A stretch of 64,000 bases of DNA, from the NCBI RefSeq assembly GCF_900187295.1, contig NZ_LT906473.1:1364001-1428000 (forward strand), written 5' to 3'. The position numbers were made by a program, and so were the translations under genes. Below, one piece after another: positions 22,299 through 28,530 of the stretch. Under the pieces are notes generated by a model. It did not search any database and was not told the origin of the DNA. It was given only the letters and a program-made list of their open reading frames with translations. Position 1 is the first letter of the stretch; each line of letters starts with the position of its first letter. Source of the DNA: Corynebacterium cystitidis (GTDB lineage Bacteria; Actinomycetota; Actinomycetes; Mycobacteriales; Mycobacteriaceae).

Positions 22299-23132
22299 AT
22301 GGCCAGAAAACAGCAGGAAAACCACTCCTACGAGATAGATACCGGCATCGCCGAGGTCGTCGAGGAACCGGACGGGTCGGTCACTCTTTTGGTCAACGGG
22401 GTACCCTCCTCCAATAATGTTGCCGGCGCTCCGGAACGCCTGGAGTTCGAATACATGCGGTGGATTGTGGCAGCTGTCGAAGAGTTCGCTCCCGCAGAGC
22501 TCAAGCGGCCCCGTCTGACTCATCTCGGCGGCGCTGGATGCTCCTTAGCACGCTATTTCGCACACGTTTGGCCAACATCACGCAATACGGTAGTTGAGAT
22601 CGATATGGAATTAGCCCAGCTCGTAAGGCAGATATTTGATATTCCCAAGTCCCCTTCCGTTAAGATTCGCGTCGGCGACGCCCGTGAGGAAACCACTAAC
22701 TTCTACCCGTCGAGCAGGGATGTCATCATCCGCGATGTCTTCGCGGGCGCGTCCACGCCCCGCAACCTCACGACAGTTGAATTCTTCTCTGCGGCCAGGG
22801 CATCGCTTGCCGACGACGGCCTCTACGTTGCCAACTGTGGCTCTCACGCAGATCTTATTAACGCCAAGGACGAGCTCGCGGGAATGTGCGAAGTGTTCCC
22901 TGACGTGGCTGTTATCGCTGATCCGCCCATGCTGAAAGGGCGCCGTTACGGCAATATCATCCTGCTGGGTGCCAATCGGCGCCTAGTCGATGATGGAGCG
23001 TTGACTCGGCGGCTTTTGCAGGGCGCCGTTCCCGCTCATTTTAAGGATGCTGCGTGGGCAACTGCGCTTGCGCGGAAAGGTACTGCGCGACATGATACGC
23101 GACATGATGCGCAGCTTTTTGGAACTTGTTGA
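22299..23132 (+). CDS. Spermidine synthase-like methyltransferase-fold protein
   Basis: A 277-residue protein with the Rossmann fold of the spermidine synthase/methyltransferase superfamily. Seen are [15 protein letters not shown] (nucleotide loop), [16 protein letters not shown] (acidic residue after strand 2), [10 protein letters not shown] and [12 protein letters not shown]. Aminopropyltransferase activity is not proven, and corynebacteria are not noted for spermidine synthesis, so this may be a related enzyme of unknown substrate. ATG 22299 is chosen from the TACCCT box; ATG 22293 would add two residues. A tandem 12-mer (23087-23098 and 23099-23110) encodes the repeated RHDT-RHDA near the C-terminus. 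Confidence 0.75.
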
Positions 23133-23313
23133 GATGAAACAAGCTTTCACGCATATTATTTCTGAGCTTTGATTTCTTACTTTCGTCAGAACCTTAGATT
23201 AATCTTAGATGAAAATATCTTCACTTTCCCCCTTTTTGTCCTTGTTAACCCCATTGAACTGCCATAACATCGAAAATTATTAGAAGAGATGTTCATTTGC
23301 AAAGGGCAAGAAG
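23133..23313 (+). promoter_or_regulatory. AT-rich leader of the PIG-L/ATP-grasp/GT2 operon
   Basis: This 181-base gap is much richer in A+T than the flanking genes. It contains a perfect 10-base palindrome AGATTAATCT inside TTAGATTAATCTTAG, and a possible promoter with TTGAAC followed after 17 bases by TTATTA. AAAGGG lies 8 bases before ATG 23314. No gene is seen. The palindrome is a candidate operator; the promoter call is weak. Confidence 0.4.
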
Positions 23314-24228
23314 ATGATATCAATTGTTTTAGGGTCATTAGTTTTGGTGATCTCTGTCGTAGCACTGGCGGTTTTATTACGCCCACAGAGTCGGAGAGAC
23401 TTCAAACGTTCCTTCCGTCACCCAAGCCAGCTACTCGGTTTCGTCGCGTTTGGTTTTGTGGTCACCGGCCTCCTAGCCTGCATCCACCTTGTTACTGACA
23501 ACGGTTGGCTGCTGCTTGCATCGGTGGCAACACTCTTACTCACGTTCATTGCCTGCCTGATCATCAGCCATAACTACCGCATCCCCGAGCGTGAACCCAA
23601 TCGCCACACCAGCATTCTCGTTGTCGCAGCACATCCCGATGATTTAGAGATTGCGTGTGGATCTACCATCGCGAAATTGGTCGACACCGGACATGACGTA
23701 CACGGCATCATCATGTCCGATGGCGCGGACGGCGGTGATGCGTCGTTACGCCCGGATGAAGCCCGCGACGGCGCAACCTTCCTCGGATTGAACTCGCTGA
23801 AAGTCATGCACATGACTGACCGCGCGCTAGACACGCACATGAATGACATGATTGCTGTGATTGAAGAAGCCATCGTCCAGCACAATCCGGACATGATCTT
23901 CACCCATTCCCAGCATGAAGTCCATCAGGACCACCTGGCAGTCCACCAGGCAGTCATGCGCGCTGGCCGCAACCACCACTCCATCCTCTGCTTCGAGTCG
24001 CCCTCTGTCACTGCCGATTTCAAACCGACCGTTTTCATCGACGTGACTGATTACGTAGACGTCAAGGCAGAAGCTATCGCGGCCCATGCCAACCAATCTG
24101 GCAAGCCTTATATGACTCGTGAGATCACCGATTCCATCACCACGTTCCGTGGGCGCCAGGCACGTGTACGTCGTGCCGAAGGATTTGAACCGATGCGCCT
24201 GAACCTGAACGACCCGATGTCCCTCTAA
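23314..24228 (+). CDS. Membrane-anchored PIG-L/LmbE family deacetylase
   Basis: A 304-residue protein. Two to three hydrophobic helices fill residues 1-85, followed by a PIG-L domain. The zinc motif AHPDD (106-110) and the distal HQDH (204-207) with the required histidine are both intact, and SDGADGGDASLRPDEARDGATFLG is the family's substrate loop. PIG-L enzymes remove acetyl groups from N-acetylglucosamine conjugates such as mycothiol precursors. The membrane anchor and the neighbouring processive glycosyltransferase suggest a membrane-bound or polymeric amino-sugar substrate; that is inference. First gene of a four-gene operon. Confidence 0.85.
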   Translation: MISIVLGSLVLVISVVALAVLLRPQSRRDFKRSFRHPSQLLGFVAFGFVVTGLLACIHLVTDNGWLLLASVATLLLTFIACLIISHNYRIPEREPNRHTSILVVAAHPDDLEIACGSTIAKLVDTGHDVHGIIMSDGADGGDASLRPDEARDGATFLGLNSLKVMHMTDRALDTHMNDMIAVIEEAIVQHNPDMIFTHSQHEVHQDHLAVHQAVMRAGRNHHSILCFESPSVTADFKPTVFIDVTDYVDVKAEAIAAHANQSGKPYMTREITDSITTFRGRQARVRRAEGFEPMRLNLNDPMSL

Positions 24229-24237
24229 GAAAGTATT

Positions 24238-25053
24238 GTGTTGACTACCTTCCTCATTACCGGAGTCGGCGGACCAGCCGGCTCGTCGTTAAGCACTCAA
24301 CTTCAAGAACGTGGACACACCGTCGTGGGCGTGGACATGCTTGAGATTGCTGGGGCCCTCCAAGGCCCTCGCGCAGACTCCCCTGACCTAATCCCATTTC
24401 TCCGCACCGCAATCGCCGAACATGACGTGGATATCTTCATCCCCACGGTGCAAGACGAACTTCCCTTCGTCGCTGCTGCCGCCCCGTTGCTGCCGTGCAC
24501 CGTAGTGCTATCAGATCCACTCGCCATCGGTCTCGCACACGACAAATGGTTTACCGCCCAGTATTGCTCCGACAACGGACTTGCAGTTCCGGCAACCGTG
24601 ACCGGCAGCAACGAGTTCAGCGAGTTCCCTCACGTGGTTAAACCTCGTGTAGCACGCGGTGGACGCGGCGTTGTCGTCATTGATACGCCGGAGGATGATT
24701 CGAGCGAGCGTAACGACGCGCTGATCCGGCAGTCTTTCGCCTCGGGCGACGAGTACTGTCCACAGTTGTTCATCGGCCGCGACGGCGATGTGCTCTGCGT
24801 CAACTTGCGTAAGACGAAGCTCCGCGACGGCCGTGTGGGCAACGCGGACGGGGTTGAACGTGCAGACCACGCAGGAGTCGAAACGCTAGCGAAGCAGGTT
24901 GCACAGCTTTTCAACCTGCGTGGCCCTGTCGATATGGATATTCGTCTGACCAACGAGGGCACCCCCGTGCTATTGGAAATCAATGCACGCTTCGGCGCTA
25001 ATTCGGCTCACGCCCCAGAAATTCTGGATGCGCTGCTGGCGGAGGTGGGCTAG
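24238..25053 (+). CDS. ATP-grasp domain protein (carbamoyl-phosphate synthase L-like ligase)
   Basis: A 271-residue protein with an N-terminal Rossmann-like part (TFLITGVGGPAGSSLSTQL) and an ATP-grasp domain. HDKWFTAQYCSDNGLAVP begins the grasp, VVKPRVARGGRGVVVI is the lysine-bearing nucleotide loop, and GPVDMDIRLTNEGTPVLLEINARFGANS carries the metal-binding acidic residue and asparagine. ATP-grasp enzymes join a carboxylate to an amine or thiol. Together with a deacetylase that exposes amines, ligation of an amino acid or acid to an amino sugar is a natural hypothesis. Start is GTG 24238 or TTG 24241. It lies 9 bases after the deacetylase gene. Confidence 0.8.
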   Translation: MLTTFLITGVGGPAGSSLSTQLQERGHTVVGVDMLEIAGALQGPRADSPDLIPFLRTAIAEHDVDIFIPTVQDELPFVAAAAPLLPCTVVLSDPLAIGLAHDKWFTAQYCSDNGLAVPATVTGSNEFSEFPHVVKPRVARGGRGVVVIDTPEDDSSERNDALIRQSFASGDEYCPQLFIGRDGDVLCVNLRKTKLRDGRVGNADGVERADHAGVETLAKQVAQLFNLRGPVDMDIRLTNEGTPVLLEINARFGANSAHAPEILDALLAEVG

Positions 25054-25056
25054 ACC

Positions 25057-26358
25057 ATGATGGCCTTCTACATCTTCACGATGGGCTTGCTACTATTCCG
25101 GCTACTGTTCGTGCCTTTCGGTTTGGTTCATGAGTTCTTGGCGCGTCGCCGTCAGACACGTGGCAATCTCGGTGTGCTTCCTACCGCCCCTACCGTCTCG
25201 GTGGTTGTGCCCGCCCACAACGAAGAAACGGTCCTGGAAGCATGCGTCATGTCGATCTTGGGTTCAGGCTACGAGAACATGGAGATTGTGATCGTCGACG
25301 ACGGTTCGACAGACCGCACCCGTGAAATTGGTGAAGCACTGGCTGCTCAGCGTGACAAGGTCCGCTACATCTACCAGGACAACGCCGGCAAAGGTGCGGC
25401 ACTCAATCATGGGTACCGCGAATCCACAGGCGAATTCCTCATGTTCATCGACGCAGACAGCGTTTTTACCCCACAGACTGTTCCGGAAATGCTGAAGGCT
25501 TTCCATAGCGCAAATATTGGCGCTGTGTGTGGCGATGACCGCCCGTCTAACCTCGACCGCGTGCTCACTCGCTTCTTGGCGCTGATTACTCACGTGGGTA
25601 CCGGTTTGGTGCGTCGCGCATTCGACGTCTTGCGCGTGGTGCCCGTCATCTCCGGCAATTGCGGCACTTTCCGACGCTCCTGCCTTGACGAAGTAGCTCT
25701 CGCTGACCCAGGCCGTCCCCTGCGCGAAGATACGATTGGTGAGGATCTCGAGTTGACGTGGAAGATTCATCGCACTGACTGGCGCATCGCATTCGCACCC
25801 CACGCTTTGGTGTATGCTGAATCCCCATCGACGGTGAAAGCACTGTTCAAGCAGCGTGTGCGCTGGGCGCGTGGTTTGCTGCAGAGCCTGCGATACCACT
25901 GGAAGTGTATGTTTACTCTCAAGTACGGTTCTTTCGGGCCCTACCTGTGGTTTGCAGTGGCCACTATGATCGTGCTGCCCATCACGCAGATCGTGCTCAT
26001 GGGCTGGGCTATTTGGGACCTTCAAAACGTGACTTGGGCGACGTCGGCACGCGAATTCTGGGCCGGCACTTGGGGCGTACTCTTGGCCTCCGGCTTGGTT
26101 CTCTCCGTGATCCTGCTGGTCATCGCTATGGCAATGTCGAACTCCTTGAAAGATCTGCGTCACGCTTGGGCGCTGCCCATCTGGCCTTTTTACTCGATAC
26201 TGATGTCGTTTACGATGGTACGGGCTCTCCACCTCGAGATCGCTCATGCAGAGCAGGTGTGGAACAAACCGGAACGTACTGGTGTGATCTCGCGCTCTGA
26301 TACTACCCAGCTGGAATCTCCCCCGGCTATCAACGGCTCCACCACCATCGCAGTCTAA
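25057..26358 (+). CDS. Processive GT2 glycosyltransferase (PgaC/NodC/hyaluronan synthase-like)
   Basis: A 433-residue membrane glycosyltransferase. One N-terminal helix is followed by the GT-A domain with VSVVVPAHNE, VDDGS (80-84), the metal-binding DAD (132-134), the acceptor-site ED (229-230) in GEDLELTWKI, and QRVRW (266-270), then three C-terminal helices. D, DxD, ED and QxxRW together mark processive enzymes that polymerise and extrude a polysaccharide such as poly-N-acetylglucosamine. It is third in the operon, 3 bases after the ATP-grasp gene. The sugar used cannot be read from sequence. Confidence 0.88.
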   Translation: MMAFYIFTMGLLLFRLLFVPFGLVHEFLARRRQTRGNLGVLPTAPTVSVVVPAHNEETVLEACVMSILGSGYENMEIVIVDDGSTDRTREIGEALAAQRDKVRYIYQDNAGKGAALNHGYRESTGEFLMFIDADSVFTPQTVPEMLKAFHSANIGAVCGDDRPSNLDRVLTRFLALITHVGTGLVRRAFDVLRVVPVISGNCGTFRRSCLDEVALADPGRPLREDTIGEDLELTWKIHRTDWRIAFAPHALVYAESPSTVKALFKQRVRWARGLLQSLRYHWKCMFTLKYGSFGPYLWFAVATMIVLPITQIVLMGWAIWDLQNVTWATSAREFWAGTWGVLLASGLVLSVILLVIAMAMSNSLKDLRHAWALPIWPFYSILMSFTMVRALHLEIAHAEQVWNKPERTGVISRSDTTQLESPPAINGSTTIAV

Positions 26359-26372
26359 GAAAGTAATTCTCC

Positions 26373-27452
26373 TTGAAACCCATTCCAATAATTCTGCTTT
26401 CCACCCTGGTTTCTGTCTGTACTGGCCTTGCTGCTTGTACTCAGTCCACACCACAACCGGAAGCAAAAGACTTGGGGCCTACGGGTAGACCTCTCACATT
26501 AGGCATCGGGTGGGAATCTGTTAAAGATGACACCGTCAATTGGGACGAGGTACGCGAGCGGCTCGATTCCACCGGCGCGAATCAAATCACCGTCGGGGTG
26601 GGTCGCTCAGATTTCATCGGCTTTCCCGCCGCCGGCCAAGAAGACTATTGGGCTGCCGGGGTTAATGAGGACGAGGACCTTGTTCAGGATGTCGTTGACA
26701 CGCTTACACGTGGCAGCGACCGTGAGGTTACGCTCACCATCGATGTCATGGCGCCCACTATCGTCGAAACCAATCCGGACTACGTCGGCGCATTCGCAGA
26801 CGGCTCCGCCTCAGAAGACTTCCCCTCCGCCACAGCGCTCTACCGGGGCTCGGTTGGTGACCGGATAGAGAGCATGTGCGAAGCAGTCGACGAGCGCTAC
26901 AACCCTGATGCGATTGCGCTGACTGAGCTCATCGGTGACACCTTCTTCTCGCCTGCCGATGAAGAACTATTCGCCGAAATGACCGATGAAGATGAATTTC
27001 CGCGCCATGAAAACGGCAGTGTGAACACAGCGGATGACACCGTGAACGACTGGCAGTCTCAGATCATTACCAGCGTTATCGATCGCTGTCAGAGCGCTTC
27101 GGGTAACCAGGTGGTGATGGACACTCGCGTGAACTGGGAGGCGCCCGGCGAGAACCGTTTTGATTCTGGCCATCGTTATGACGACATTCTGGCCACCGGC
27201 GCAGATTTAACTCTTTGGGTTTACACCAGCCTGTCGGACGAAGAGCCAGAGACCGCGGGTGCGGTTGCTGAGGGCTTACAGGAGCGTTTCGACGACTCCG
27301 AATTAGAGCGCATCACCCTCTCGTTGGGCCTGTGGGGAGATCTCACCCCAGATCAGCTGGAAACGGCGTTGGAGCAGACGCAAGATTTTCAAACCTCGGT
27401 CACTCCACTCTCTCTGATGACAGATGAGCACTGGGCTGTCCTCAAACTATGA
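26373..27452 (+). CDS. Secreted lipoprotein, possibly glycoside-hydrolase-like, of the polysaccharide operon
   Basis: A 359-residue predicted lipoprotein. It has a signal peptide (MKPIPIILLSTLVSVCTG) and a lipobox ending LAAC with lipidated C22. The mature part is acidic with alternating strands and helices (LTLGIGWESVKDD, VTLTIDVMAP, DAIALTELIGDTFF, VVMDTRVNWE, DLTLWVYTSL), a layout that could be a TIM barrel like the C-terminal glycosidase domain of PgaB, but no catalytic motif is certain. It starts with TTG 26373, 14 bases after the GT2 gene, so it belongs to the operon. Likely role: processing or anchoring the polymer outside the membrane. Function is inference. Confidence 0.7.
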   Translation: MKPIPIILLSTLVSVCTGLAACTQSTPQPEAKDLGPTGRPLTLGIGWESVKDDTVNWDEVRERLDSTGANQITVGVGRSDFIGFPAAGQEDYWAAGVNEDEDLVQDVVDTLTRGSDREVTLTIDVMAPTIVETNPDYVGAFADGSASEDFPSATALYRGSVGDRIESMCEAVDERYNPDAIALTELIGDTFFSPADEELFAEMTDEDEFPRHENGSVNTADDTVNDWQSQIITSVIDRCQSASGNQVVMDTRVNWEAPGENRFDSGHRYDDILATGADLTLWVYTSLSDEEPETAGAVAEGLQERFDDSELERITLSLGLWGDLTPDQLETALEQTQDFQTSVTPLSLMTDEHWAVLKL

Positions 27453-27471
27453 CAGTCGTGAAAGTTTGAGG
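27440..27471. terminator. Inverted repeat between convergent lipoprotein and GH25 genes
   Basis: CCTCAAACT (27440-27448) and AGTTTGAGG (27463-27471) form a perfect 9-bp stem with a 14-base loop that contains the lipoprotein stop codon. It ends two bases from the GH25 stop. There is no T-run, so a bidirectional terminator or RNA-protecting structure is likely but not sure. Confidence 0.5.
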
Positions 27472-27473
27472 CC

Positions 27474-28523
27474 CTAACGCGCTGCTTTATTGGCGTTATC
27501 CAAAAGGATCAACAGGTCTCCCACCGTGTAATCTCCGACCACCATGTTTTCCAAGTCTTCGACTGGTAGCTGACCCGTTTCAACCTGGTGTGCCACAGTG
27601 CCTGCAATATTGGATGCATCTTCCGCATCGAAGCCAATGGACTGTGCGGCCTCCTGCAACGCAGGTGCTGCTGCTACGCCCAGGCCGACTGCAAGGATCG
27701 CAGCGACTAGTGCAGTGTTATCTTGGCCAAGAACAGCCAGAGACGAAGATTCAGGTGCTTGCAGAAATTCCAAGACACCGCCAGGCGAAGCGAGGTTACC
27801 GGCGGCAAACGCGCCGAGCTGGCCTTCACTGCCGTTGAAAAGATTCATATCTACTGGCGTATCGATACCGGCAACGCGACCATTATCCGAGCGCTGCCAG
27901 AACGAGATTGTGCTCCAGCCTCCTACGGGTGCGGGCGCGTGGTTCTGGTAAGCGGCGAGCCACAGTGGGTACTCCGAGAATTCAGAGGTGTTGGCCATGG
28001 CATCATGCCAGAAATAACGGTAGGTGTAAATCATTGGCGTCTTGCCGGTCAGTGCCTTCAGCTCTTTCAGGAAGGTGCGGGTCCAGTCTTGCAGCTGGAC
28101 TGGGCTTAAGCCTTCTGAAACCTCGATATCCAGGACTGGGGGCAGGCTGGTTGCAGGAGCCTGTGCCATCACTGTGGCGAAGTGCGCTGCCTGAATGTGC
28201 GGGTCGGTTGCTGGGCGCGCATAGTGGTACGCGCCGGTCAGCAGGCCGGCGTTGTTCGCCGCTTCTACATCTTGAGCGTAGAACTCGTTGGTGAAGCCGT
28301 AACCTTCTGTAGCTTTTATGAATGCGTAACGCTGGCCGTCTGCTGCTACGGAACTCCATTCAATCGCGTTGCCACCGGGGTGTTGGTGGCCTGCGACGTC
28401 AACACCGGATGGTGCAAGCGGGTTGGTAAATGCGTTAGCGTGTGGTGAAAAAGGGACAGCGAGCAAAGCACAGGCCATCGCGATTGCGGCGATGACAGAA
28501 TTCATCTTCAGAGAAAGGCGCAT
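27474..28523 (-). CDS. Secreted GH25 family muramidase
   Basis: A 349-residue secreted lysozyme-like enzyme that cuts peptidoglycan glycan chains. A signal peptide (SVIAAIAMACALLAVPFS, cut near ANA) precedes a GH25 barrel: SGVDVAGHQHPGG, YAFIKATEGYGFTN, GAYHYARPA, PPVLDIEVSEG (catalytic acid region) and PMIYTYRYFW. The last 120 residues are non-catalytic and end in an amphipathic region. ATG 28523 is chosen because TAGAGT lies 7 bases upstream; ATG 28529 is only one base from that box. It faces the polysaccharide operon and may act in wall remodelling or release. Confidence 0.88.
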   Translation of the reverse strand: MRLSLKMNSVIAAIAMACALLAVPFSPHANAFTNPLAPSGVDVAGHQHPGGNAIEWSSVAADGQRYAFIKATEGYGFTNEFYAQDVEAANNAGLLTGAYHYARPATDPHIQAAHFATVMAQAPATSLPPVLDIEVSEGLSPVQLQDWTRTFLKELKALTGKTPMIYTYRYFWHDAMANTSEFSEYPLWLAAYQNHAPAPVGGWSTISFWQRSDNGRVAGIDTPVDMNLFNGSEGQLGAFAAGNLASPGGVLEFLQAPESSSLAVLGQDNTALVAAILAVGLGVAAAPALQEAAQSIGFDAEDASNIAGTVAHQVETGQLPVEDLENMVVGDYTVGDLLILLDNANKAAR

Positions 28524-28530
28524 AGTCATA

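Follow-up and report, generated by a model that had tools for sequence, protein, structure and literature searches.

Several described pathways join a glycosyltransferase to enzymes that act on an amino group or form an amide. In mycothiol and bacillithiol synthesis, as presented in the available part of PMC4360819, a glycosyltransferase and a PIG-L-type deacetylase are followed by a ligase acting on the freed amine. The Nod factor route uses a family 2 glycosyltransferase (GT2), a deacetylase and N-acylation (NodC, NodB, NodA; available part of PMC5380657). The capsule pathway of Campylobacter jejuni includes Cj1438, a GT2 fused to an ATP-grasp amidoligase (available part of PMC11800379). Further context is given by PMC2824669 and by a study of pig-L in C. 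difficile (PMC12613277), both likewise available in part.

Here we analyze a stretch of 64,000 nucleotides from Corynebacterium cystitidis (positions 1,364,001 to 1,428,000 of contig NZ_LT906473.1, forward strand; hereafter the window), which carries at 23314-27452 a cassette of four genes for a PIG-L deacetylase, an ATP-grasp ligase, a membrane GT2 and a secreted lipoprotein. The cassette is real, and it is undescribed within the literature searched: no paper that treats PIG-L, ATP-grasp and glycosyltransferase together was found in the openly licensed literature, where such an absence carries little weight, while PIG-L alone was findable. We tentatively favor the view, albeit at somewhat less than even confidence, that the four products build a cell-envelope amino-sugar polymer, modify it at nitrogen and trim it.

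The four genes and their products

All four open reading frames lie on the + strand and are separated by gaps of only 9, 3 and 14 bases, in agreement with an earlier sequence-only reading of this DNA. The first (23314-24228, 304 residues, ATG start) encodes the PIG-L family deacetylase. Its PIG-L domain (PF02585, residues 102-217, about 23617-23964) is matched in Pfam with an E value of 3.8e-26 and 92.5 bits against a cut-off of 28.2, and the metal-site motifs AHPDDxE and HQDH are invariant in an alignment of seven sequences that includes relatives at 26-30% identity. The NCBIfam equivalog cut-offs for MshB, BshB1 and BshB2 are not reached (18.5, 79 and 47.2 bits, respectively). We rejected the possibility that this protein is the mycothiol enzyme of the genome, because a separate MshB and Mca lie elsewhere in it. 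A further PIG-L protein, the fourth of the genome when that of the window is included, is found at G000:C1:670800-672400 and stays below the MshB, Mca and BshB cut-offs.

The deacetylase has hydrophobic segments at residues 4-22, 42-60 and 66-84, with a positive loop after the first. Three such segments, with a strongly positive loop 1-2 and a near-neutral loop 2-3, occur in 10 of the 11 PIG-L proteins examined (the locus L037 was left out); the eleventh, from L036, shows one segment, probably because its start was chosen too late. From these loop charges the catalytic domain is predicted to be cytoplasmic, as the earlier reading had proposed for a PIG-L-type enzyme. The receiver domain fused to PIG-L in a relative (type B, below; Pfam, L012) agrees with this side.

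The second gene (24238-25053, + strand, 271 residues, GTG start) encodes a PylC/CPSase-like ATP-grasp ligase. It matches ATP-grasp_3 (PF02655) in Pfam with an E value of 7.7e-16 and 59 bits against a cut-off of 23.2, is nearest to 2pn1, Ddl and PylC, and retains K103, K135, E247, N249 and R251, which are invariant in 28 aligned sequences. The third gene (25057-26358, + strand, 433 residues, ATG start; PF00535/PF13641) encodes the GT2 with synthase-type motifs. The Glycos_transf_2 match in Pfam has an E value of 6.3e-37, about four membrane segments are likely, and D82, D132xD134, E229D230 and Q266xxRW270 are invariant in the seven-sequence alignment. Its top NCBIfam model is PgaC_IcaA (TIGR03937), with 182.5 bits far under the cut-off of 422.3; the NodC model gives 95.4 bits against a cut-off of 550. 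The catalytic motifs of all three enzymes, previously described as intact, remain invariant across these relatives.

The fourth gene (26373-27452, + strand, 359 residues, TTG start) encodes the lipoprotein, with the lipobox LAAC at residues 19-22 (26427-26438). It has no Pfam match at an E value of 1. Structure prediction and Foldseek, the kind of comparison with GH153/GH18-type barrels that the earlier reading had suggested, yielded a predicted (beta/alpha)8 barrel closest to the hydrolase domain of PgaB. The resemblance to PgaB therefore stands at the level of the fold but not of the sequence. PF14883, the model of glycoside hydrolase family 153 (GH153), matched 0 of 25 lipoprotein relatives, the few Pfam matches at E 0.027 or worse being signal peptides or chance; GH153/PgaB sequences were found in none of 149 genomes of the phylum, with the E. 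coli control positive; and hhalign of the lipoprotein against GH153/PgaB gave under 1%. Membership of GH153 by sequence is hence rejected. A sequence search against solved structures returned chance-level matches only. A search of 5.8 billion proteins with the lipoprotein profile, in which scoring was limited to the 7994 candidates with the most words in common, retrieved 31 proteins, and no Pfam domain was seen in any of them. Glu185 (26925-26927) is invariant in 25/25 relatives and lies just after strand beta4 of the predicted structure. We propose it as the putative counterpart of the catalytic Asp474 of GH153, an equivalence drawn from strand order and not from a residue-by-residue alignment.

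Distribution of the cassette and of the enzyme trio

The lipoprotein profile matched 17 of 242 Corynebacterium genomes, one of them (G239) only with a fragment (E 4.9e-4). The GT2 profile matched 14 of the 242 at E 1e-60, all within these 17. The order PIG-L, ATP-grasp, GT2, lipoprotein is found in 11 of the 14 loci, and L007 has all four genes with the lipoprotein placed first. The remaining two loci, L033 and L034, come from closely related genomes; they lack an adjacent PIG-L, and their ATP-grasp is reduced to a C-terminal part of 159 residues. A synthase-type GT2 and at least part of the ATP-grasp are consequently present in 14/14 cassettes. The 14 loci form eight groups by the proteins shared within about 5 kb on either side (L043 contributes one flank only), so the make-up of the unit holds although its flanks differ. 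A chance neighborhood of four genes is rejected since the set recurs across genomes, and the search for the neighborhood that had been proposed as a check found the genes linked and conserved, not scattered.

The cassette also occurs outside the genus. In Arthrobacter sp. StoSoilB13 a tblastn search of plasmids located adjacent GT2 and ATP-grasp genes on a megaplasmid, with the four genes in the same order and at 42, 41, 45 and 34% identity. A second order of the class, sampled with 149 genomes, gave matches to the lipoprotein profile in two genomes, each within a full cassette with the same gene order. Within Corynebacterium the cassette was found in C. pilosum, the sole find when genome contigs were scanned with the ATP-grasp, and matching proteins were found in C. 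renale. C. cystitidis, C. pilosum and C. renale colonize the bovine urinary tract.

We read L033 and L034, where GT2 and lipoprotein are retained, as a probable case of one joint loss of PIG-L and half of the ATP-grasp. Such a loss suggests two modules, synthase plus lipoprotein and deacetylase plus ligase. The lipoprotein stands without the other cassette genes in L009 and L042, the two loci read from the other three lipoprotein genomes (G239 was left out), and in genome G153 an additional copy (L041) likewise stands alone. An ATP-grasp relative in L010 (7909-8817), with 37% identity over its first part and a match broken into two frames, is perhaps a remnant; the other cassette genes had no match within that locus. 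Beside the reduced cassette of L033 (713-5244) lie a second GT2 and a protein of 1034 residues that by eye resembles a secreted glycoside hydrolase. Beside the cassettes of two related genomes (L008, 149-6241; L037, 10942-15118) are repeat-rich reading frames resembling translated CRISPR arrays, as well as what we take to be a large Cas9-like protein with a Cas1-like neighbor.

The three enzymes also occur together without this lipoprotein. In what we call type B (L011, 5437-9866; L012, 7086-11420; L013, 6545-10824) a receiver-PIG-L fusion, an ATP-grasp, a PHP-type protein and a GT2 form one run; the receiver and PHP domains were confirmed with Pfam in L012 only, and none of the three loci has a match to the PgaB-fold lipoprotein. 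By eye, the run is followed by a short protein with what looks like a single membrane segment, and this relative of the trio is perhaps controlled by signaling. Type C (L054, 4199-9498; L055, 7909-14001; Pfam names checked in L055 only) consists of PIG-L, GT2, an ATP-grasp with an extra N-terminal part, a UDP-GlcNAc 2-epimerase-family protein and a HAD protein, and its runs sit, by eye, among apparent threonine-pathway and rho-like genes. In a sample of 197 genomes of the class, the profiles at the thresholds used matched PIG-L in 7, ATP-grasp in 5 and GT2 in 32 genomes. All seven PIG-L genomes, that of the window included, have the three enzyme kinds in one neighborhood, with some trio genes that fell below the profile threshold recovered by BLAST. 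These searches favor relatives of types A and B, which supplied the sequences for the profiles.

The four-gene cassette (type A, 12 rows) forms one clade in each of the GT2, PIG-L and ATP-grasp trees, which leave out L033, L034, L037, L039 and L043. The GT2 tree places types A, B and C in distinct deep clades with weak joins, and A and B together form no exclusive clade in the PIG-L or the ATP-grasp tree. We make no claim of a single common ancestry of the trio, to which the trees lend no support; the association is therefore either old or recurrent.

The genome that carries the window measures 3.01 Mb, and C. cystitidis entries share 96% identity with its lipoprotein and 98% with its ATP-grasp. 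A stretch of 181 bases 5' of the cassette (23133-23313, + strand) is a likely promoter site and separates it from a spermidine-synthase-like protein (22302-23132, + strand). A promoter scan of 23000-27700 was uninformative, with 3 sites versus 2.3 in shuffles, and a terminator scan stayed at shuffle level. On the other side lies a convergent gene (27474-28529) for a GH25 (lysozyme-type) protein; by eye, L006 and L035 have a similar one in the same place. The sole Rfam match of the window is an atpB RNA (RF02916, 48989-49111, minus strand, 114 bits) unrelated to the cassette, and a tRNA search of the window found none.

Proposed function and its alternatives

The favored polymer pathway would run in four steps. 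The GT2, judged by its family, would assemble a chain of the N-acetylglucosamine (GlcNAc) type from a UDP-sugar. On the predicted cytoplasmic side PIG-L would remove N-acetyl groups from the nucleotide sugar, the growing end or the unexported chain. The ATP-grasp enzyme may then couple the freed amine to a small carboxylic acid that it has activated, possibly an amino acid. The chain would finally be extruded, and the lipoprotein, given its predicted fold, may bind, cut or guide it outside. The sequence-only reading had placed polymerization first, then deacetylation, then ligation. This order is unlikely for an extruded polymer, given a PIG-L that is predicted to be cytoplasmic and is receiver-fused in a relative; deacetylation and ligation would act on a precursor, on the nascent end or on a chain that is still cytoplasmic.

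A simpler pathway would yield a plain, partly deacetylated polymer resembling poly-N-acetylglucosamine (PNAG), with PIG-L replacing the usual deacetylase of carbohydrate esterase family 4 (CE4) and the ATP-grasp in a minor role such as precursor supply or recycling. The best curated model of the GT2, PgaC/IcaA, and the PgaB fold of the lipoprotein would suit it. However, the ATP-grasp is at least partly kept in all 14 Corynebacterium cassettes, its catalytic residues are conserved across an alignment of 28 sequences, and the predicted location of PIG-L does not suit the deacetylation of an exported polymer. PNAG-style extracytoplasmic deacetylation is unlikely on the strength of this topology and of the receiver fusion in type B, and we consider the plain polymer as a whole unlikely.

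The GT2 may alternatively be no polymerase at all. Glycosyltransferase, PIG-L and ligase are exactly the logic of thiol synthesis, the QxxRW motif is also present in non-processive GT2s, and a GT2 with about four membrane segments would fit a mycothiol-like glycolipid or glycoside that is exported and then bound or cut by the lipoprotein. Since the fold of the lipoprotein is nearest to a polymer-binding hydrolase, and PgaC_IcaA scores above all other NCBIfam models listed for the GT2, such a small molecule appears distinctly unlikely.

In a third alternative the sugar provides the carboxylate: the ATP-grasp would amidate a uronic acid with a small amine, and PIG-L would act on a neighboring residue. 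The precedent is the C. jejuni fusion, whose amidoligase acts on glucuronic acid according to the available part of PMC11800379. The Campylobacter domain is described there as TupA-like, whereas that of the window is nearest to 2pn1, Ddl and PylC; and a scan of six window proteins, those of the cassette and of both neighboring genes but not the rest of the genome, found no sugar dehydrogenase family. We regard this alternative as very unlikely. Most improbable is a lipoprotein that hydrolyzes peptidoglycan or another wall glycan in an operon that modifies the existing wall and makes no new polymer, because a synthase-type GT2 is present in all 14 loci and the GH25-like neighbor, judged by eye, is confined to L006 and L035, both at the site of the window, while the cassette recurs at other sites.

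It is possible, though doubtful, that the polymer of the favored pathway represents an undescribed envelope class: a poly-glucosamine on whose amines PIG-L and ATP-grasp place a new acyl group, perhaps an aminoacyl group, within the cell before export, and which a new family of PgaB-fold hydrolases then processes outside. Clusters of at least three architectures contain the trio across Actinomycetes; if this view is true, amino-sugar polymers with exchanged N-acyl groups would be a type of glycan that is widespread in actinobacteria but has been overlooked. A cytoplasmic N-acyl exchange step would be added to the synthase-dependent polysaccharides, a PNAG-like polymer would acquire a different charge and chemistry, and a new lipoprotein family that may cut the polymer would have been identified. 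The Arthrobacter megaplasmid cassette may permit tests outside animal pathogens.

Comparison with known systems

Like the cassette, Cj1438 brings a GT2 and an ATP-grasp amide former into one polysaccharide pathway; there the sugar supplies the carboxylate, and the available part of PMC11800379 describes the fusion without a PIG-L part. With the Nod factor route (PMC5380657, available part) the cassette shares GT2, deacetylase and N-acylation, but it has PIG-L in place of the CE4 enzyme NodB and ATP-grasp in place of NodA, NodC lies on a separate long branch, and no match to NodB or the NodA acyltransferase was found among the six proteins scanned. The order of glycosyltransferase, PIG-L-type deacetylase and ligase is common to mycothiol (MshA/B/C) and bacillithiol (BshA/B/C) synthesis (PMC4360819, available part). 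The cassette differs from these in its membrane GT2, in an ATP-grasp that is not MshC or BshC, in the outside lipoprotein and in the separate MshB and Mca of the genome. The actinomycete receiver-PIG-L clusters (type B) have the same three enzyme kinds in one run, but add the receiver fusion and a PHP protein, and the PgaB-fold lipoprotein has no match in them.

The closest comparison is with pgaABCD/icaADBC, which share with the cassette a GT2 whose top model is PgaC_IcaA, the fold of the PgaB hydrolase domain and a deacetylase in the operon. The PNAG resemblance noted from sequence holds to this extent, although the GT2 scores far under the equivalog cut-off. In contrast to these systems, the cassette has a PIG-L predicted to be cytoplasmic and an added ATP-grasp. 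The CE4 (NodB-type) polysaccharide deacetylase family had no match among the six proteins scanned, and no small membrane partner of the PgaD/IcaD kind lies beside the GT2, which is flanked at 3 and 14 bases by the genes for the ATP-grasp and the lipoprotein (the search did not extend to the rest of the genome). Together, although it fails most tests of PNAG membership, the cassette works most like a PNAG-type synthase system.
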